Shown here: in pieces, positions 2,454 to 64,000 of the stretch
How positions within the stretch are numbered: position 1 is the first letter of the stretch
Layout: each line of letters opens with the position of its first letter
From: [Phialemoniopsis] sp. UDSM-2020
Taxonomy: Eukaryota > Ascomycota > Sordariomycetes > Thyridiales > Thyridiaceae
Direction of reading: 5' to 3'
Assembly (NCBI GenBank): GCA_018873225.1
Contig: JAEILZ010000003.1
Span: 1,612,001-1,676,000 of the forward strand
Length of the DNA: 64,000 nt
Position numbers and translations under genes: made by a program
Notes under the pieces: generated by a model
The model's input: the letters and a program-made list of their open reading frames with translations, nothing else
What the model was told of the DNA's origin: nothing
Database searches by the model: none

Positions 2454-5078
2454 TCAGTGATACCCATTTCCTTCAATCGCAGACAAGATATCGCTATCTC
2501 CCCACATCAAGTCGTCACTGAACGACATGATGCCTTCCAGATCGCTTCCAGAATAGCCAAAGAAGGCGTCGACTACTTCCGAAGTTGTCTCGTTATGCCG
2601 ACTGATCGAGGATTGGTCAAAATCATGCTGCTCGGCGGCTGCATTGATGCCCTGTGATTCCCCTTCGCCCTGCGTAAAGGTTGTTGACCACGGTGCGCTT
2701 GCACTCAGGCGTTGAGGCTCACTTCCTCCGCTTTCAACAGCGTCAATCCTTCGCTTACGAGGAAGCATGGTGCATGCTAGCTCCGGTGTGCGGCCGTGGC
2801 TGTGCGTCAGACTTTCTCTGACGAATGCTTCGGCTACTTCGATGCAGGCCGTACCCACGCGGAGGACCCTGGAACAGTACGTGTAGGGCAGGTCCATGCC
2901 TGCAACTTCTTTCAAGATGGCCATGCAGCTCTTGAGACTCTCAAGGCCATCCAGTTGAGCCTGATTAAGAGTGTGGGCAAAGAGGTTTGAGAAGAGCTCA
3001 AAGAAGGGGGCAAATGCATGCCACTGAAAGGGTCTAAACGAAGAGGGAGGGAAATTAGCGCTCGTCAATTGATTTGGCTTTTGCGTGTCACTCACCGGCG
3101 TAGCACCATTGAGCCACCTATCGTGGTTTTTCCCGCCCTTATCGACTCGAGGTTGGCTAAGCTCTGTCGCGCTTCCGCAAGGCACTGCTGCTTCTTCTCG
3201 GGCAACTTGCTACAACGCAGTATCATGACTCGGAGCTGATGACATATGAATCGCATCTCCATTTTGAGGAACGGCTTGCCTCTCCAGCCTGACATCGTGT
3301 CCTCCGGATTAGCTTGGTCTTGAAGTTCCTGGAACTGGTCCATTTCCTTCTCTAGACTGACGACGGCCAGCTCAATCTCTTCCTGTGGTTTCTTCATGCT
3401 GCTGGCAGAGTACAAGTTGTTGTATATCCGCTCCTCGATAATGCATGCCTGAATCCTCTGCACCTGATCACTCCAGGCACCTTTAGGAATGGCTACATCG
3501 CAATCGTAAAATGGTAGGTTTGGCGTTATACCCATGAGTGATGACAGATCTTTGTCCAACGTGTAGAGCAACCAGAATGAGAATTGTCTCTCGCTAAGTT
3601 CATCCTCGCGCATGCTTTTCAGCTCATGCTGCTGGTGCAAGCCCATGGCTTTCGCCAACGAGCAGCTTCTATCGAGCAGCATAAGGGATGTTTCAACTGG
3701 GAAATACTTTTGGGCGATGAGAGTCTATGACAAGGCTGATTAGTCCTACCCGATCGTTGAGCTCTGAAGATTGGGCTTACTAGAGCTGTCAAAGCTTGCA
3801 CGTTGAGCAAAGTAGGCTCGCTGAACGTGTCCAGCAGACTCAAAGCTCGCCGAATGTTGGCAACAAAAGGTTGCTCAAACTTGTTCGCCGATAGCACCTT
3901 CATGTCAACGATTGGCTCCTCCAAGGGCATGTGTCTCCCAGCCAGACATCGAATTATGATGTAATTGAAGAGGACTATCCATGCCATATCGCAGCTCTCC
4001 ACTCCAGAAGCGTAGCACCTTGAGACTGCCTCATCAACATGTGCGCGTTCCAATAGTGTAGTGACGGGGTTGATGTGCCGGAAATACCCGTCGAGCAGTG
4101 ATTCCAAGAGCCACTGCGGTGGGAGGATGGGTTGTTGGTTGTCATGAGAGGCGTCGAAGGGATATCTCTGAGCCAGCGAGCCAGAAAGATCTCGGAAAAC
4201 CCGTGTCTTGTAAGCGAGGAAGCTATCCCAGACAGGGAGGTCTGACGAGGCAGCATGTGGTTGAGATAAAAGATCTCTCAGGGAGCTCTGCGGACGTAGC
4301 TTCGTCTCGATAGTGTTATCCGAGTCGAGTAGCATAGCGAGCAGCGAGCTTGGGCCATGGAAGCGTTGTCTGCCGGTGGCATCTGACACGACGCAGCCGG
4401 CGTACCGGTGGCCACCAGCCTGGCTGGGCCGGCTCGAGACATCACCGGTAGGGGTATGCTCTAAAGTAGAGGCCACTTCTGAGGGTTGAGCCTTCGTAGA
4501 AGTACTATTCTTGGCGAGTTGTCCAGGGAGATCTTTGACCGCTGTGATGAGCTCGCTGAACTTGTTTTCGAGGAGGTTTAGGCGGGCTCCAAGCTTCTCA
4601 AAGTCATTCACCCTGCATAGATCAGCTTGACCGATACGGCAGACGCATCATTTGTACCTTACAGTAGTTTCGTCTGATTTGGTCTTCTGCCCTGGTTCTT
4701 CCAGCTGCACTCTATTCCACTCCGGCCACAGTTGGTACATGTAGGCAACTGCCTTCCACACTTGACCTTCTTAAGTCGGCACTGGATAGTTTACACCGTC
4801 AGAACAACAGATTAGCCAATGTAGGGGTCTTGCAGGCTTCCCCTGTCAAAGCACGGTTGGTTGTCCTTGCGTTGATGGGGCATTGTCCATCGCCCATTTC
4901 AGCAATAGATATGGGGACGCATCTTCGATAGCCGAGAGCCGATGCGCCAAAGTGAACAAAGCCGGCAAGCAGGGAAGAGGAAGAAACATCATTAGCGTAC
5001 CTGGTCGCATGCTGCATCGTGCAGCTGCGATGGATCTTCTCGGCCATGGGCCGCGTCGCTACCACGTGGGGAGCCCAT
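2454..5078 (-). CDS. Zn2Cys6 transcription factor, paired with the adjacent sugar transporter
   Basis: Five exons on the minus strand: 5078-5001, 4781-4663, 4612-3781, 3724-3096 and 3033-2454, giving 745 residues with the frame kept at every join. Exon 1 ends in ...AACDQ and exon 2 begins CRLKKVKC, so the zinc cluster (CDQCRLKKVKC...CTNCGRSGIEC) is only formed after a 219-nt intron is removed. A short coiled stretch follows (FEKLGARLNLLENKF), then the fungal-specific regulatory domain (roughly residues 180-560), with the motifs SLAKAMGLHQQHE and FSFWLLYTLDKDLSSLMG. The C-terminus is acidic. The gene is divergent from the MFS transporter at 5612, so a role as its pathway-specific activator is likely but inferred. 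The upstream intergenic region holds an inverted CGG repeat. The first exon is the least certain part, though the zinc-cluster spacing supports it. Confidence 0.87.
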
Positions 5079-53176: not shown

Positions 53177-54280
53177 TCAAGCCTGCGTAATCCTCCCGCT
53201 CATGATCAACAGGCGGCCACCGTCGACCCTAATATTCTCGCCATCAACATACGCGCCAGCACTACTTGCGAGGTACAAAGCGGTGGCGACCATCTCTTGC
53301 TCCGTCCCGGCGCGCCTGGCGGGCATGTCCTTCTCAAAGCGCATATTGTTATAATTCGGGTCGTTAGGATTCGTAGGATTCATCGCACTTGGGAAGAGCC
53401 CTGGTGAAATAGCATTGACACGGACTGAACACGAATGACTGGTATTAGCTTATGGTTGCCAGTAGACATGTGATAACTACTTGCTGTAGAACTCGGCAAA
53501 TTCGGCAGCCATGATCCTGATCATGTGGTCGATCGCTGCCTTTGACAACTGGTATGCAGGCGCGAATTGTCTATCAACAGTTTGTAAGTTCGGTCTCTGT
53601 AGCAATCTTCAGGGGTGATAGTACCCATGGTGTTGCGCTGCGACAGAGCTGAAGCAGATGACGTTGCCTCTTCCTTGTCCCCTTCGGGCAGCAGTACCAA
53701 GCAGGTCGACGAGTCCGGCAACCATGTAATATGGCGCGAACACGTTGACCTTGAAGCTCTGCTCCATATCTGCATATTTCATCGACTGCATAGCTTCTGC
53801 GAGTTTTGAAAGAGGCTCAGAGACAGTGTAGACCTTCTGTTGCATCTTGCGGATGCCAGCGCAAAGGACAAGGGAGTCGAGCTCTTCGTGTGAAGCTCGG
53901 ACTGCTGCGATGGAATGCTGCAGGCCATCCTCAGAGGAGAGGTCTCCCTGGACGCTGACTACGCTTTTAGCAGTGATCTTGCACAGTCTCGACTAATAAG
54001 ACAAACATTTGAATCGAGCATGTCTTATTTAACTCAGCACTGAGAGCATCTAGTTCGGCTTTTGCAGCATCCAGTCGCTCGGCTACAATGTCGATAAGGC
54101 AGATCGAGGTGGCGCCGTTTGCTAAGAATCCCCGGGCAATCATCTTGCCAAGACCACTGGCTAACACAATGTCAGCAATTCGAGAGAACTTGACCCTGGA
54201 ATTCTTCACCAACCTCCTCCGGTAATCACTGCCCTTCTGCCCTCCACAGAGAACAGCTCGTTCGCAACCAAATCAGCCAT
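53177..54280 (-). CDS. Short-chain dehydrogenase/reductase (SDR)
   Basis: Five exons: 54280-54214, 54160-54007, 53963-53625, 53570-53485 and 53424-53177, giving 297 residues. The classical SDR motifs appear in order: TGGASGLG (glycine-rich cofactor loop, residues about 20-27), the acidic residue in LIDIVAER, the NNAG-position equivalent LCAGIRKM, VICFSSVAAQHHG with catalytic Ser, and YQLSK with catalytic Tyr and Lys. It ends DGENIRVDGGRLL, typical of classical SDRs. The third intron begins GTACTA; the fourth uses a GC-AG pair (GCAAGT donor); the second is only 43 nt and is the weakest join. The start is 437 bp from the P450 gene in the opposite direction, so the two share a promoter. Substrate unknown. 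Confidence 0.83.
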
Positions 54281-54717
54281 GGCGTTGTAATAGAGACTGG
54301 CTGCTGCTTGGATGGGCTTGTTCGACTATGGCCTTCGATACGGATCTTTGCTCGAGAGTTACACACCACTATGTAGTGCCCTTGATCATACTCCAAGATA
54401 GGTCCAGATATCCGGAGAGGCGAATCCCTCCACTGGATTTAGTCTCCATCGAGGTACTTCCTATCTTGGGGTTTAGTGGGCTTGTTAGTGGAGACGGGAA
54501 TTCTCCGACTTTTTGGCGCCTGAGAGTCGGCCGTTTCCGTGCTCCGTTCTTAGCCTACCGAGAAGGGCGATTGAACGACGCTGGTGTACATGACAGCAGA
54601 TTTTCGGATATCATGTATTTGTTTAAAAGATCCAACATGGTGATGGGTATCAGATCCCAGCCAGGAGAGGCCAAGCCAATCCTCTAGAAGACGTGTGGTC
54701 AAAGCACTCAAAGAACG
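54281..54717. promoter_or_regulatory. Divergent promoter of SDR and P450 genes
   Basis: 437 bp between start codons. CGG triplets occur in inverted pairs, including CGG-CCGTTT-CCG at 54528-54539 and CGG-N7-CCG near 54495-54507. Confidence 0.5.
54528..54539. promoter_or_regulatory. CGG-N6-CCG candidate operator
   Basis: CGGCCGTTTCCG, an inverted CGG pair with 6-bp spacing, the same geometry as the sites at 56958, 56985 and 60290 but without their inner TA-rich pattern. Confidence 0.4.
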
Positions 54718-56957: not shown

Positions 56958-56969
56958 CGGATTATTCCG
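56958..56969. promoter_or_regulatory. CGGANTANTCCG palindrome, copy 1
   Basis: CGGATTATTCCG, 203 bp upstream of ATG 57172. It is followed by ACA, as is copy 2. Confidence 0.65.
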
Positions 56970-56984
56970 ACATTGTTGCCCCCG

Positions 56985-56996
56985 CGGAGTAGTCCG
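56985..56996. promoter_or_regulatory. CGGANTANTCCG palindrome, copy 2
   Basis: CGGAGTAGTCCG followed by ACA, 27 bp after copy 1 in the same orientation of flank. Confidence 0.65.
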
Positions 56997-57171
56997 ACAA
57001 TGGATGTCATAGATAGCGCACTTTCCCGTGACCATCCAAACTCGGAAAGATTAGATATTCTATGGTGTAATAGGGGCACTTATATTCATTGAAAGAAAAT
57101 AGTTTACCGTATAGCGGTGACATGTTGAGTGCATACATGCTCTGTATTGAGTGTCCTAGATCTCAGCTAAA

Positions 57172-58227
57172 ATGGTGTACCCCGAAGTCCCCGACATCGT
57201 GTGCGAAGGGTCGCCACACGCCATCGGGCTCGCCCATGGCAAGACAGCCAAGGAGCGCATTAGACAGTCTGTGCTGGTATACACCAAACTGTACGGAGAG
57301 ACAGCCCAGATAGACTGGCAGGAGGCCAGAAGGAGGGCTTCGGAATTCGGCCCCGCCATCAGAGACTTGACACCACACCTGTACGAAGAGATGCAAGGTA
57401 TCGCGGAAGGATCTGAGCTCGACCTCGAAGACATCATCTGCCTCAACGTCCGCAGTGAGATCGCACTGACCAACTACTCCGACGGCTGTTCGTCCATGGC
57501 CAAAGCCATCGATGATAAGATTTTTGTGGCGCAAAACTGGGACTGGGTAGAGAAGGCTGGAGATTCGACCGTCCTCCTCGACATCCGGGCACCGAACAAG
57601 CCCCGGATCCGGATGCTCAGCGAAGCCGGCGTGGTCGGAAAGATCGGGATGAACGATGCTGGTGTGGGAGTGTGCATGAACGCAATCAAGTGCGGCACGA
57701 TCGACAAATTCAAGATGCCAGTCCACGCGGCTATGAGGATGGCACTCGAGAGCCGGTCTTGGGCCGATGCGAAAGCCGTGCTCGATAAGCTGGGTTTGGC
57801 CTCGTGCGTCAACATCATGGTGGCGGACAAGACCGGCCGTCTTGGTACTTTCGAGTGCACTCCAAAGGGCATCAATCCTATCGCGCCGAAAGGCAAGGAG
57901 CAAATTGTCTGGCACACTAACCACCTCTGCGAAACGAATGTGTTTCCGGGCATCATTGACCATCCTGCTGCCAACTCGTTCTCCCGACTTGATCGCATCA
58001 AGGAGCTTTCTGCCGGTCAGGCGATCTCCGTGGAAAGCATCAGAAAATGGATGTCAGACGAGCAAGGGGCTCCAACCTCCATCTGCCGCTCAAAGCCGCC
58101 TGGGGCAACTGGGGTGGAACGAATGGTTACCTTGGCTACCATCATCACTGATGTCTCCAACGCCGAGATGCATATATCTTTTGGCAAGCCAAGCCTCGAT
58201 CCACCTATCAAAACGATCACTTTCTAA
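57172..58227 (+). CDS. Ntn hydrolase of the isopenicillin-N acyltransferase (C45 peptidase) family
   Basis: Intronless gene for 351 residues, start ATG 57172. The family signature is a Gly-Cys pair at which the precursor cuts itself; here it is Gly105-Cys106 in NYSDGCSSMAKA, at the position and context used by isopenicillin N acyltransferase (Gly102-Cys103). Upstream are PHAIGLAHGKTAKERI and EEMQGIAEGSELDLEDIICL; downstream are VAQNWDW, NDAGVGVCMNAIK, and HTNHLCET near the C-terminal third. In Penicillium the enzyme swaps the side chain using phenylacetyl-CoA; relatives hydrolyse amides. The usual peroxisomal C-terminal SKL-like signal is absent (ends PPIKTITF), so it is probably cytosolic and may be hydrolytic. 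Two CGGANTANTCCG sites lie upstream. Confidence 0.92.
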   Translation: MVYPEVPDIVCEGSPHAIGLAHGKTAKERIRQSVLVYTKLYGETAQIDWQEARRRASEFGPAIRDLTPHLYEEMQGIAEGSELDLEDIICLNVRSEIALTNYSDGCSSMAKAIDDKIFVAQNWDWVEKAGDSTVLLDIRAPNKPRIRMLSEAGVVGKIGMNDAGVGVCMNAIKCGTIDKFKMPVHAAMRMALESRSWADAKAVLDKLGLASCVNIMVADKTGRLGTFECTPKGINPIAPKGKEQIVWHTNHLCETNVFPGIIDHPAANSFSRLDRIKELSAGQAISVESIRKWMSDEQGAPTSICRSKPPGATGVERMVTLATIITDVSNAEMHISFGKPSLDPPIKTITF

Positions 58228-58300
58228 GTGTAGAAGTTGCCACGGTGGACAAGATAGTCAACAGTAGCGAGCAGTGTAATTTAAGATGTTAGCTTTGCAT

Positions 58301-60098
58301 TCATTGACTTTCTACAGAAGATTGTAGAAAGGACAAGAATATCTCGTGATATGTCTTTGCAGGCGGATATGACTCTGCTGCTGCTGCTAAAATGTTGGAA
58401 CATTGTATCAGAGATTTGAGTGACTGTTGTCGCGCTGGTGTCGTTTCCGGCGATGCTTGACTGATAGCTTGCGCAAGCAAGACGTTCCCTGCCGTGAATA
58501 CATGTTCTGACGTGAGCCAAAGTGATACAATATGGCCTTGACGTTGGCGTTCATACTCCTCCGCAATGACTCGATTGGCCGCCTCCCTTATCGCTGTCTG
58601 CAGATCCAGAAACCACGCACTTTGGTGAGAGCAAAAGTCGCAACGATGGTTCAGTACAGGTGCCAAGGATAGCCAAGCTCTGGTATCGAGAACCGCTCTA
58701 ATATCCGCATCAGAGGCGAGGCTTAGAAGCTCAGGGGTCATCGGACACTCGGCCCAGGTCTGGCTGAGCGCTGGATCAAGAGATTGGTGTACAAGCCTCC
58801 TAAGGCGAGAGCTAAGATATGCAGCGTGCAGTGCTGCCTCGGATTTCTCAGCCCTGGGCCCACTGGCCAAGGTCGGCAGCTCGATGAGCTCATCTGGGAG
58901 TAGAGTCGGCCGTCCAAGTCTAGCACACACCTGTTTCTCAAGAGTGTATAAAGCACAGAACAGGCCCCTGGTGCGCTTTTGCGGAAGGTCCCGCGTACTG
59001 CCTCCAAACGGATCATTCCAAGCCACATTTCCACGAATTCCACTTTCTGACGTCCAGTGTGCCTCTTGCACAATGTGAGATCTGTGTAGACAAGCCTGGA
59101 CGCTCAGCCTACAGGCAAGGCCGAGCCAGTGCCAGACTATTTTGCGCCGATGATCGACCAGCTCGTACACGATCAGGAGTATGAGGGCTTGAAGCGTATC
59201 GGCGTCATCCTTCGCAAAGACAGCATCGATCAGCTCGCCCGCCCAGTCTCGTAATGCCCTGGCAATCGTCTGCATCTCGGGCCTGCGTCGGGCGTGATGA
59301 GCAGCAGCCGTGGCAGCTGCTAGACAGACAAACAGTCGACGTGCCACAGGAAGCCGACGGATCGGGCTGTCCAGCAGTAACTGCTCTGGCTCGATCACCT
59401 GCCATTGCGCATTGATGATGGGCAGGAAGTGGCCTTCGACGAGATGGCGTACAAGATCGTTGCGTATGATACTGGGATCGACTTCGCGCTCCAAGTAGGC
59501 AATGGGATAATCCACAGCCGCTGGTGGGGAAAGGTCCGGGGTTTCGATCGAAACTTTGGCCTCTTGTGCAGCACCCAGCACAGCACATGTCATAACCTGT
59601 GCAGTGGTCGCGCCTACATAGACCGGGCAAGCTGTTTGAGGTGTCACCACCAGCGATGGCTCCTCTATCGGATCCGCTGCCGAGGAGACAAAAGTCATGT
59701 CTGGCACATCGTGAGGAGAGCTGAGGCCCTGGTCTCCATGTTTGAGTAAGGCGATTCGTTTTCTAAGCTTCCGAACCTTGTCGTCCAAAGCAGCAACATG
59801 TCTGTAAAGCGTTAGCAAGGGCCTCTGGCTCAGGGCACCGCGGCCGTAACAACAGCCAGGGCTTATTATTACCCTCGAGGAATGTCACGTCCTGTAGCTG
59901 CATCGTAAAAGACGCAATCCAGGCTGTATTTGTGACAGTTACTGCAGTTTGGGAGCCGATTATCGCACTGAATGATGAAGCTTTAATCTTCTGACGTTTG
60001 GTTCGAAAGAGAACAGCGTCTTTGAACAACCAGATGGGACGTACCTTTTTCTTGCGTCGCTGACATCTTCTGCATGTCGGTAAGGTCAAAGAAGACAT
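58301..60098 (-). CDS. Zn2Cys6 transcription factor
   Basis: Three exons: 60098-60045, 59967-59873 and 59801-58301, giving 549 residues. The zinc cluster is split directly before its third cysteine: exon 1 encodes CRRCQRRKKK, exon 2 CDNRLPNCSNCHKYSLDC. A short coiled region follows (ALDDKVRKLRKRIALLKH). The fungal regulatory domain is visible in QALILLIVYELVDHRR, LACRLSVQACLHRS, RTRGLFCALYTLEKQVCARL and ARLGRPTLLPDELIELP. It starts 361 bp from the divergent regulator at 60460 and ends 73 bp from the acyltransferase-like gene, with which it converges. The shared palindrome at 60290 lies between the two regulators. Targets are probably the local cluster (inference). Confidence 0.88.
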
Positions 60099-60459
60099 CC
60101 TACCAAAGCTTCTGGCTCACATTGGCTTTAGCAATGTCGGGCTTTGACGATGGTGATGTCTTTGATTCGCACGGCACTGGCTGTCTTGACATATACAAGC
60201 CTTGATAAACATCGAACGGGGCGGGGTAGCAACAAGCTCTCCTCACTACAAGCCACATTCAGCGCTAGTCGTAGATAAGAGGGCGCTACGGAGTACTCCG
60301 GAAGATCGCTGGCGCGTGATGTGGTCTCCAGTCTCTAGTGCGTGGGTGCGGAGCCAAGGGAGTGCGGAGGCCCTGGGAGCTTGAAGGTCTTCAAAATGCT
60401 CACCTTGACGCCATGCGCCAAGGTGCACAGTTCTGACAGATTCTCAACTCATCAGACCG
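60099..60459. promoter_or_regulatory. Divergent promoter between two Zn2Cys6 regulators
   Basis: 361 bp, containing the perfect 12-bp palindrome at 60290-60301. Confidence 0.5.
60290..60301. promoter_or_regulatory. CGGANTANTCCG palindrome, copy 3
   Basis: CGGAGTACTCCG, a perfect 12-bp palindrome of the same consensus as those at 56958 and 56985. Confidence 0.65.
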
Positions 60460-62463
60460 ATGGAGACTTCGCCGTCATCGACGACTAGCAGAGCTCGGCC
60501 CGCACACAAAAAGGCTTGCACCCGTTGCCGGCAGCGTAGAGTCAAGTGTGACAACAGCCTACCCTCGTGTCAAGCATGCCTTCGTGCTGGGGCACTGTGT
60601 CTCAACGATGATACCCTCGGGCTTGGGACGCCGCGGTCTCTGGTTGCACATCTAGAGCAAGAAGCTGCGCTCCTCGAGGAGGAGCTTAGGTGGCTTGAGA
60701 GCAGGGCTGCCCAGGCGGGTAATTCGTCTAGTCAAGCTAAGTCGTTTCAAGGAGAGCAGGCCACCTTTGCTAGGGCTGTCGCGACCGCGGTTGCCGATAC
60801 CGCGATACCACTAAACAACAATGATGCGACGGAGCAGTCGACCGTACGAGTGTCCTTTCACACTCGCCCGAGTCAATTGCCTCAGCCGCTGATTCGTGAG
60901 AATTGGAACACCAAACACATTCGACCGACAAAAGCTCTGGCAGTCAAAGACCTCCCTCCCATGGCGGCGGAGTTGCTTTACAAGAACTACACCGAGATCC
61001 ACTTACCGCAGTATCCCTGTGTGTCCGAGATTGACCTCGCTCGTGCATTCCAGCGTTGTCGGGACGAAGGAGGCGACAGTGACAGTGTAAGCGAGAGCAA
61101 TGGAGGATCGAATTTCGACACATTCATCGTATCTGTGGCCATGGCCATCAGCGCGAACACACTCCTTTGGAAGGATGAATCGAATGCTTTAGCCGCTTCA
61201 GCCGGCTTCTGGGAAGCTGCTAGAATGCTACTTGACTTGCCAGACATCATCCAAAACGAGACGCAGCATCTGCAATACTGCCTGCTGATGGTGCACTACG
61301 GGTTCACAAATCCAATGGTTGTGGACGTGTGGACTTGTATCGGAGATGCTGTACGGCTATGTCTTCAGCTGGGCTATCACTGCGATATCACCAGTGCAGG
61401 CGATAATCTGAGCCCAATGGAAGTGGACGCCCGAAGACGCCTACTTTGGACCACGTGCGCGATGGAATGGTAGGCTGTGGTGATGGACTGCGTGACAAAG
61501 GATTTACTGCTGACTGCGTACAGGGCTATCTGTCATCACATGCGGTTACCTCCTGTCCTCAAACATCATGATATCTCAACGCCCTACCCGTCGATACTCT
61601 CGGACGAGGCAATCTACCAGGGAAATTCTGCAGGCTTCCAGAAAAAGGCTGCCGGCCGACACATGTTGCAACTGAGATTCCTTGAAATGGAGGCCCTGCG
61701 AGTGCTCTTTCACCACGAACCGGTCGAGTCCTTTGAGCAGTGGTCTGTCGATATCATGCTTCGAGTCGATAAGTACTACCAAGACTCTCTGATCTATATC
61801 AATGAGAGCAAGCTCGAGTTCCGCAACATCCAGTACCATGGGCTACGTGGCAGGGTACACAAGCCCACGCCACGGGTCCCCCAGCCGTCACTATCGTCCC
61901 GCCTCATCTGCATTGCGTCTGCTCAAGCAATAGTGGAGGATTATAGCCGGCAGCGAGACCAAGGTCGCTTGTTCTACCCATGGCACGCTGGTCACATATT
62001 GTTCGAGGTGGCGATTTATCTGATCGACACCGCTTGGAATTGTCATGAGTGGCTCCGGGAAAGTTTGAAAGCTGAAGAGGTGGCCGAGTGTTTGAAAAGG
62101 TTCCCTCCTACGATCCGTCGAGTCTCCACCTTCTGGCCAGCCCTGGAAGCGTGCGCAGACACACTGGATGAGCTCATCGCAGCCGTACTGGTGCGCCTCG
62201 AAACACCACTCAGCGTCGACGCCTTGAGTCTACATGATGACGATGCAATATCTGCACGCATCAACCAATATCTCTTTCCGGCCACCGAGGCTGGTCCCGT
62301 CTATGCGAGCCAGGACATCGCGCCAACTACGCTAGACTTTGACTTCAACAATCTGGACTGGAGCAACAACGAACAATTGGACTTTCTCGAAGTGGATAGC
62401 ATTCTTATGTCTCTTATGTCTACAGACGTGGTCGCACCAGCCTTTTCCACGTCGAATATTTAG
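60460..62463 (+). CDS. Zn2Cys6 transcription factor
   Basis: Two exons, 60460-61469 and 61524-62463, giving 649 residues. The zinc cluster is CTRCRQRRVKCDNSLPSCQA, continued by CLRAGALC, with standard spacing, followed by a coiled-coil region (LVAHLEQEAALLEEELRWLE). The regulatory domain contains YCLLMVHYGF, WTCIGDAVRLCLQLGYH, ARRRLLWTTCAMEW and ICHHMRLPP. The C-terminus is acidic and hydrophobic (DFDFNNLDWSNNEQLDFLE), typical of an activation region. The intron removes only 54 nt with GTAGGC and CAG ends. It ends 42 bp from the amidohydrolase stop on the other strand, so the two converge. With the divergent regulator it forms a two-regulator head pair in the cluster. Confidence 0.9.
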
Positions 62464-62505: not shown

Positions 62506-63843
62506 TCAAACCATACCAGCAGCTTGTCCGTTCTTCTTCCACACCTTGGCGTCCTTCATTACGAAGTCGACTTTCCTAAAAGCACCTTGATCCTCTCTAG
62601 GATCGGTTTCGAGGGCGACAATATCCGCTGCGACCCCTTGCTCGATCCAGCCAAATCTTTTACCACAGAGATCACCTCCACAAGCTTTCCATCCCCCAAG
62701 CGTACCAGCCACAAGTACGTCCTCAACCGGAACACCAGCCCTGATCATAAGTTCCATCTCTCTAGCATTTTCCCCATGTGGGAATGTCCCTGTGTCGCCA
62801 CCGCAAGCTAGGACAATTCCCATCTCCCATGCCCGCTTCACATTCGACAGGACTTGTTCAAAAGTTGAACTGAACAGCCGCTCAGCGATCGCGAGTGTTG
62901 GAACAAGGATGGTCTTGTTCTCGAGGCAAACCTGCAAGACTTCCTCGTTTGCCCTGTACGCGTGCTCAACGGTAGTACTGCCGCTCCTAGCAGCCATGAT
63001 TACGCCTTCGTTGGTGCCGGCATGACAGGCAACTGGAGCATTCGCCAATTTTGCTTCAGCAACCAATGCTCTCATTTCCTCTTCGGAATAGACCAGCAGG
63101 TCCGGATTAGGGTCTTTAGGAGGATGAAGTACAGAACCAATGTACGGGTGTTGTTGCTTCGGAGGGTATCGCATGGTTCGACGCCTATAATCAGCGTAGA
63201 ACTTGATGATATCAGCTCCGTATCCGATACGTCTCCTGACAGCTTTCCTTATTTCTTCAACACCATCGGCCGGATCCGAGCCGGTAGGGACGCAGGTTCC
63301 CCCAATGTGATTTTCATTGCGAACCTCGTAGGCGAACGTCGAAGCAATGATCTTCGTCGCAACGAATAGCCTGGGACCCGGAATGATACCTCGGTTGATC
63401 GCGTCACGTACGTTGCAATCTGCCTCTTGCATACCCTCAGATCCCAGATCCCTGCACATTATCAGCACAAGAGAGAAACTCTGTTGCCGGAGCGGCACTG
63501 CTTACCTATACGTGGTGTAACCTGCTAACAAACCAACCCTGCAATGGTTCGTGGACCTGATGATGCGCTCTACGAAGCTCTCTTCTTTCTTTTGCTGCGC
63601 AGACGGGACCTCATCATAGGAGTGTAGGAAAATGTGCGTATGTGCATCAACGAACCCAGGGCAAACGAATTTGCCTCGAAGATCAATGTCTGGCTCGGCA
63701 ATCTCCAAAGGCAGTGGCGTGTTGCGGTGCCAGACCTTCACGATCTCGCCAGATGTTTTCGACACCGTGATTGAATAGTCCTTCAATATTTCTTTGGTCG
63801 TCGAATCAAATAGCTTCGAGGTGTGGATGGTAAACTCGGCCAT
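62506..63843 (-). CDS. Metal-dependent amidohydrolase (imidazolonepropionase-like)
   Basis: Two exons, 63843-63506 and 63451-62506, giving 427 residues. The metal site is intact: VDAHTHIFLH supplies the HxH pair, IIKFYADYRRR the Lys position, CHAGTNEG and VEHAYRAN two histidines, and CGGDTGTFPHG the catalytic Asp. The N-terminal beta-sandwich half (DLRGKFVCPGF) and the C-terminal QGVAADIVAL are typical of imidazolonepropionase/Xaa-Pro-dipeptidase-type amidohydrolases, which act on cyclic or linear amides and peptides. The substrate is not known. The start at 63843 gives MAEFTIHTSKLF and the usual length; no signal peptide. It converges with a regulator 42 bp away. A CGGAATA half-site, close to the cluster operator, lies about 25 bp upstream. 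Confidence 0.9.
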
Positions 63844-64000
63844 GTTGCGATGTTTGTGTGGGCTATTCCGAGTATCAGCTTGCTATTCAGGGGTTGAATG
63901 AGGCGATGTTTCCTCGGCAACAGCAACAGATCGTATATCTGGTCCAAGTCAAATTTGACACAATAGCTATCTCAGCAGCATGTCACCCTACCACTAGAAT
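63844..64000. promoter_or_regulatory. Upstream region of the amidohydrolase (partial)
   Basis: 157 bp to the window edge. It includes ATTCCG (63865-63870), half of the CGGANTANTCCG element when read from the minus strand. Confidence 0.35.

Follow-up and report, generated by a model that had tools for sequence, protein, structure and literature searches.

Predicted CGG-N6-CCG operators in a duplicated fungal gene block with two Zn2Cys6 regulators

Two divergent genes for Zn2Cys6 regulators lie within a gene cluster in a 64,000-nucleotide stretch of the genome of [Phialemoniopsis] sp. UDSM-2020 (C5:1612001-1676000; hereafter the window), and short inverted repeats close to them raise the question of whether the cluster is controlled through a common operator. 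In order, the cluster contains genes for a short-chain dehydrogenase (SDR, minus strand), a cytochrome P450 (plus), an acyltransferase-like protein (IAT, plus), the regulators TF1 (minus) and TF2 (plus), and an amidohydrolase (AH, minus). A first-pass annotation had noticed three copies of CGGANTANTCCG and proposed that one of the two local regulators binds this motif, including its inner TA, to control itself and the cluster. We find that the wider pattern CGG-N6-CCG recurs in the promoters of the cluster and that both regulators carry PPR1-like DNA-binding domains, but that the inner TA is not a shared feature. Judged from sequence, the sites probably represent a cluster- and self-regulating operator.

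CGG-N6-CCG sites in the promoters of two paralogous blocks

Searches across all 11 contigs of the genome (44.18 Mb) revealed all four genes IAT, TF1, TF2, and AH together in three places: the window on contig C5, C9:1274-1284 kb, and C1:205-217 kb. IAT and AH of the C9 block (C9:1274019-1283689) show 55% and 62% identity to the window copies, respectively, and those of the C1 block (C1:205600-216740) 43% and 59%.

We analyzed a promoter set of 4121 bp in total, made up of four promoters from the window cluster plus three from the C9 block. The gene starts used for cutting promoters were read or estimated by eye, and the upstream regions in C9 were 700 bp long or as long as the stretch taken. 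CGG-N6-CCG is present in all seven promoters, with nine sites compared with 0.73 in shuffled sequences, and none of 5000 shuffles reached this number. Other inverted spacings between N0 and N15 occur only zero to three times each in the same promoters. When any spacing or arrangement was allowed to reach nine, 2 of 1500 shuffles of the seven promoters did so.

Two of the sites, CGGATTATTCCG (56958..56969) and CGGAGTAGTCCG (56985..56996), are located upstream of the acyltransferase-like gene, and CGGAGTACTCCG (60289..60300) is found in the 361-bp promoter between the divergent regulator genes. The divergent SDR/P450 promoter harbors CGGCCGTTTCCG (54528..54539), a weaker member containing neither CGGA/TCCG nor TA; this site had been suggested earlier as a possible extension of the group, and it fits the wider pattern seen in 7/7 promoters of the two blocks. 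No strand is assigned to these four sites. In the promoter shared by AH and a divergent transporter gene, CGGACTTCTCCG lies at C5:1676074, 74 bp outside the window, preceding the AH start by 231 bp and that of the transporter by ∼450 bp. The C9 block carries two sites upstream of its IAT gene (C9:1283873 and 1283915), CGGAAAACTCCG between its divergent regulators (C9:1280380), and CGGATCAGTCCG upstream of its AH gene (C9:1275862). The acyltransferase doublets are alike in position, at –214/–187 relative to the ATG in C5 and at –237/–195 in C9, and both blocks have a mid-promoter site between the divergent regulators.

Taken alone, the C9 block has four sites in three promoters, which was matched in 7 of 5000 shuffles. 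Four promoters (the three of C9 and the AH/transporter promoter, 2765 bp) had been seen only incompletely when the motif was first picked. They contain five CGG-N6-CCG sites compared with 0.80 expected (P = 0.0014) and three copies of CGGA-N4-TCCG compared with 0.032 expected from genome-wide rates (P = 5e-6, calculated once TA was no longer required). CGGA-N4-TCCG is the commonest form, accounting for six of the nine promoter sites and found at 505 places in the genome. The exact motif CGGANTANTCCG is absent from these four promoters. The inner TA was rejected as a defining feature, since it occurs only in the three sites noticed first and in none of the six other promoter sites.

The three exact matches in the window exist as annotated at 56958 and 56985, and the third starts at 60289 instead of 60290. 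Dinucleotide-shuffled windows contained CGGANTANTCCG 0.05 times on average, and 0/100 had at least three. For 24 sites placed randomly in the genome, the expected number of triples within 3.34 kb is 3.5e-5 and that of pairs within 39 bp is 5e-4. Because the motif had been picked after being seen, we also shuffled the window to account for the look-elsewhere effect. Of 1000 shuffled windows, 2 had three CGG-N6-CCG sites within 4 kb with at least four spacer letters in common. A comparable triple was found in 143 of 1000 if all inverted spacings from N4 to N12 were permitted; with direct and everted arrangements added, the count was 127 of 300. Picked post hoc, and with comparable triples being frequent under the wider arrangements, the triple by itself is suggestive, not conclusive. 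At a shift of 27 bp, moreover, the acyltransferase pair is identical at 16 of 20 positions in the best 20-base stretch, motif included, so that both sites may stem from one local duplication rather than from two independent events.

CGG-N6-CCG is not enriched over the whole window (20 observed, 17.4 expected) and occurs 12784 times in the genome, or once per 3456 bp. A half-site placed near 63865 in the first-pass annotation (TATTCCG at 63864) carries no weight alone, as the window contains 22 CGGANTA half-sites. Genome-wide, CGGANTANTCCG is present at 24 places compared with 33 for a reversed control pattern and is thus rare yet not special. The other 21 places form 20 loci, and seven of these places lie inside stop-to-stop open reading frames (ORFs) of at least 200 amino acids (L007, L010, L012, L016, L019, L021, and L024). 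Our scan of neighboring genes covered 20 ORFs at all loci except L006, L007, L012, L019, and L021 (15 loci in total). It returned a carboxylesterase, a DJ-1/PfpI protein, Sec23/24, a sugar transporter, an FAD oxidoreductase with a Rieske domain, an amidohydrolase of another family, a mitochondrial carrier, RTA1, and pieces of three Zn2Cys6/Fungal_trans regulators; seven of the 20 ORFs had no match and two had matches below the family cut-offs only. The regulator at L014 has its CGGANTANTCCG site ∼360 bp upstream. With 7/21 places inside ORFs and mixed neighbors forming no evident gene set, we rejected the exact motif as a genome-wide regulon motif.

Local regulators and the proposed mechanism

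TF1 (58301..60098, minus strand) is read as three exons based on inferred splicing, with a Fungal_trans match on the main exon (8.6e-16). TF2 (60460..62463, plus strand) is read as two, the first of which matches Zn_clus (1.1e-8) and Fungal_trans (1.3e-8). For the DNA-binding domain of TF1, the best match in the PDB is PPR1 (1pyi, E = 2e-13), with an ungapped alignment over the zinc cluster, the linker, and the start of the coiled coil, and with 11 residues from the sixth cysteine to the PR dipeptide as in PPR1. The TF2 domain also matches 1pyi best (E = 1.4e-9), with a one-residue gap and a linker of 10 residues, one shorter than that of PPR1. The features of the Ppr1 class, CX2CX6CX6CX2CX6C followed by an 11-residue linker to PR and a coiled coil, are hence complete in TF1 and nearly complete in TF2. 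As read by eye from the translated frames, both C9 regulators likewise have 11 residues between the sixth cysteine and PR.

The spacing between the triplets recognized by Ppr1 itself is six. According to an excerpt of PMC4245848, the linker fixes the distance between the triplets in this family, and the contacts to CGG are made by lysines lying between cysteines 2 and 3. By eye, the second of these lysines is retained in TF1, and TF2 has an arginine at this position. Given PPR1-like domains and a spacing set by the linker, we predict CGG-N6-CCG as the target of both local regulators, with the cleaner fit for TF1.

We consider it likely that the sites are Ppr1-type operators bound by TF1 (the most likely candidate), TF2, or both, providing joint control of regulators, enzymes, and importer. 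A dimer of one local regulator, most likely TF1, or of both would bind CGG-N6-CCG and activate or repress transcription in response to a presumed inducer. Binding in the shared TF1/TF2 promoter would set the level of the regulators themselves. Binding at the acyltransferase doublet and at the single AH/transporter and SDR/P450 sites would switch enzymes and importer together, probably for uptake and cleavage of an amide-bonded substrate. This kind of control is already known; the example is sound, and the mechanism is not new in kind. It turns a triplet found by eye into a testable operator with two candidate regulators and four promoters in one cluster. The main interest lies in the paralogous blocks with and (largely) without sites, which are built-in controls inside one genome.

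Observations against a shared operator and rival explanations

A number of observations weigh against the operator proposed above. The complete C1 block has one N6 site in three promoters (CGGCCAATGCCG, upstream of AH), and the promoters of a further locus consisting of AH and IAT only (C10:628900-632060, or C10:629-632 kb) have none. Together, the C1 and C10 promoters thus contain one N6 site in 2853 bp and no CGGA-N4-TCCG. Upstream of two lone AH paralogs, whose promoters were presumed and placed by eye, N6 occurs in one stretch (L049, CGGACTAGACCG) and not in the other (L050). All C1, C10, and lone-AH stretches combined show two N6 sites in 4455 bp (1.3 expected), compared with nine in the 4121 bp of the C5 and C9 promoters (P = 0.024); for CGGA-N4-TCCG, the counts are zero and six (P = 0.012). 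The acyltransferase family has 14 genes, and we analyzed the promoters of 12 (700 bp each). N6 is not favored there, with five N6 and six N7 sites, and we rejected an N6 enrichment across this family. Within the blocks, the TA core is missing from the C9 sites, and both C9 acyltransferase sites also lack the A/T. We relaxed the TA with the site between the C9 regulators already in view, and the C9 result is not a blind prediction. CGG-N6-CCG also occurs in coding regions, both of the window cluster (57824, 58982, and 63267) and of the C9 block (1281824 and 1283311). Finally, the perfect palindrome CGGAGTACTCCG, the form at 60289, is over-represented genome-wide, making up 10 of the 24 places of the exact motif.

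This last point, combined with a possible origin of the acyltransferase pair in one local 27-bp duplication, would lead to the view that the three matches reflect chance and a generic repeated word. CGGAGTACTCCG indeed belongs to a wider over-represented word: the palindrome TACGGAGTACTCCGTA has four genomic copies (L008, L009, L014, and L015, position 4993-5008) compared with none of its control, and the tandem word CGGAGTACGGAGTA has 12 compared with one. The likeness of the two acyltransferase sites at a 27-bp offset and the frequent triples in shuffled windows with inverted spacings N4-N12 point in the same direction. Chance and repetition, however, do not account for the CGG-N6-CCG sites in C9 and the remaining promoters, whose letters differ, and we regard this explanation as unlikely. 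Among the 24 places, the only other pair less than 1 kb apart consists of two copies of CGGAGTACTCCG 928 bp apart (L013:4531 and L013:5459). None of the three ORFs scanned at this locus, which do not include the short ones between the two sites, reached a family cut-off.

If the sites are functional, they could also be used by a regulator of the same geometry encoded elsewhere, with TF1 and TF2 reading something else. PPR1-type linkers are common in the Zn2Cys6 family, and such genes are numerous, the search with TF2 alone yielding 31 stretches including its own copy. The sites nevertheless concentrate in the promoters of blocks that also encode both regulators, that of the regulators among them, and the other places scanned for the exact motif do not make up a coherent gene set. 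To such a distant regulator we assign a low probability. The divergent genes could, alternatively, encode an obligate pair, with a TF1/TF2 heterodimer reading the operator. Two half-site preferences would then explain why the inner letters are uneven (ATTATT, AGTAGT); both DNA-binding domains in the window are PPR1-like, and TF1- and TF2-like genes are close together in four places (C5, C9, C1:210-212 kb, and C8:534-538 kb). But gene adjacency is no proof of interaction, the site at 60289 is a perfect palindrome, and homodimer binding is typical of the family according to an excerpt of PMC5559640. An obligate heterodimer seems doubtful to us; it is a special case of the explanation that we prefer, binding by TF1, TF2, or both, and its probability overlaps with that of the latter.

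The C1 and C10 promoters contain three CGG-N7-CCG in their 2853 bp, and N7 is possibly another operator spacing in those blocks. At the speculative end, and quite improbable in our view, a catabolic block may have been duplicated with its own regulator pairs retained, the pair acting as a heterodimer, and the operator may persist in two copies and be largely altered in the third, where N6 has nearly disappeared, possibly replaced by N7. If true, the duplicated block would represent a natural series of regulator-operator co-evolution in one genome.

Gene content and related systems

The acyltransferase-like gene (57172..58227, plus strand) has a single exon and encodes an IAT/AAT protein of the C45 Ntn hydrolases with a DGCSS motif (Pfam AAT, 2.5e-20; NCBIfam C45_proenzyme, 8.1e-72), related to the Penicillium acyltransferase (PDB 2x1d, E = 7.9e-43). 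Among the best 120 of 601 protein relatives, the top named ones are fungal, with at most 57% identity over the full length and one with 62% over 79%. AH (62506..63843, minus strand, lower limit approximate; Pfam Amidohydro_1, 7.8e-15) is similar to Xaa-Pro dipeptidase (prolidase), arginine carboxypeptidase, and ochratoxinase-type amidohydrolases (PDB 9kov, 8yag, 8ihq, 2qs8, 3be7, and 4c5y). The P450 gene (54718..56610, plus strand, with introns) has its start codon read from the sequence and a Pfam p450 match on the 3′ part (2.3e-24). The SDR gene (53180..54280, minus strand, with introns, limits approximate) matches adh_short on one exon (9.5e-11). The transporter gene past the window end, divergent from AH, belongs to the MFS type (L045). 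Two amide-bond enzyme families together with a transporter, a P450, and an SDR suggest breakdown of an amide-bonded compound.

Genome searches with IAT gave 16 stretches, read as 14 genes, those with TF1 four places, and those with AH 13 stretches, six of them at ≥51% identity (window copies counted in each case). Apart from the complete blocks and C10, three IAT genes (C1:274, 6179, and 8279 kb) have a TF2-like gene less than 3 kb away. Counting all 13 IAT genes besides the window copy, five have a TF2-like stretch within 6 kb, where 0.8% is expected per gene (P = 5e-8). That several acyltransferase-like genes adjoin regulator genes, and that four places include an amidohydrolase, hints at amide breakdown, not antibiotic synthesis.

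Among known systems, the closest likeness is to Ppr1, the regulator of the yeast pyrimidine pathway, in the inverted CGG triplets six bases apart and in the ungapped alignment of TF1 to 1pyi. Differences concern the target genes, the inner letters (CGGA..TCCG here), and the remaining protein, and the sites described here are predictions. UaY, the regulator of purine catabolism in Aspergillus, controls a catabolic set through TCGG-N6-CCGA sites, a parallel to the control proposed here; the enzymes differ. The penDE paralogue ial of Penicillium chrysogenum shares the IAT enzyme family and the DGC processing motif, and its product IAL is reported to have no penicillin-forming activity; the excerpt of this source mentions no neighboring regulator pair or amidohydrolase gene (PMC2692852). 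Literature searches for CGGN6CCG together with Zn2Cys6 found nothing, and those for CGGAGTACTCCG and for UaY nothing relevant; spelling variants of the site led to work on Candida albicans transcription factors. Among the matches listed for acyltransferase paralogs, clusters, and amidohydrolases, titles and the beginnings of abstracts do not name the gene block.

Two further observations concern promoters of other acyltransferase paralogs. CGG-N7-CCG is found upstream of C1:206649 (–152), C10:630987 (–393 and –296), C1:2210 (–297), C1:275275 (–621), and C1:6179338 (–613), and the last of these genes also carries a further CGGA-N4-TCCG at –377.

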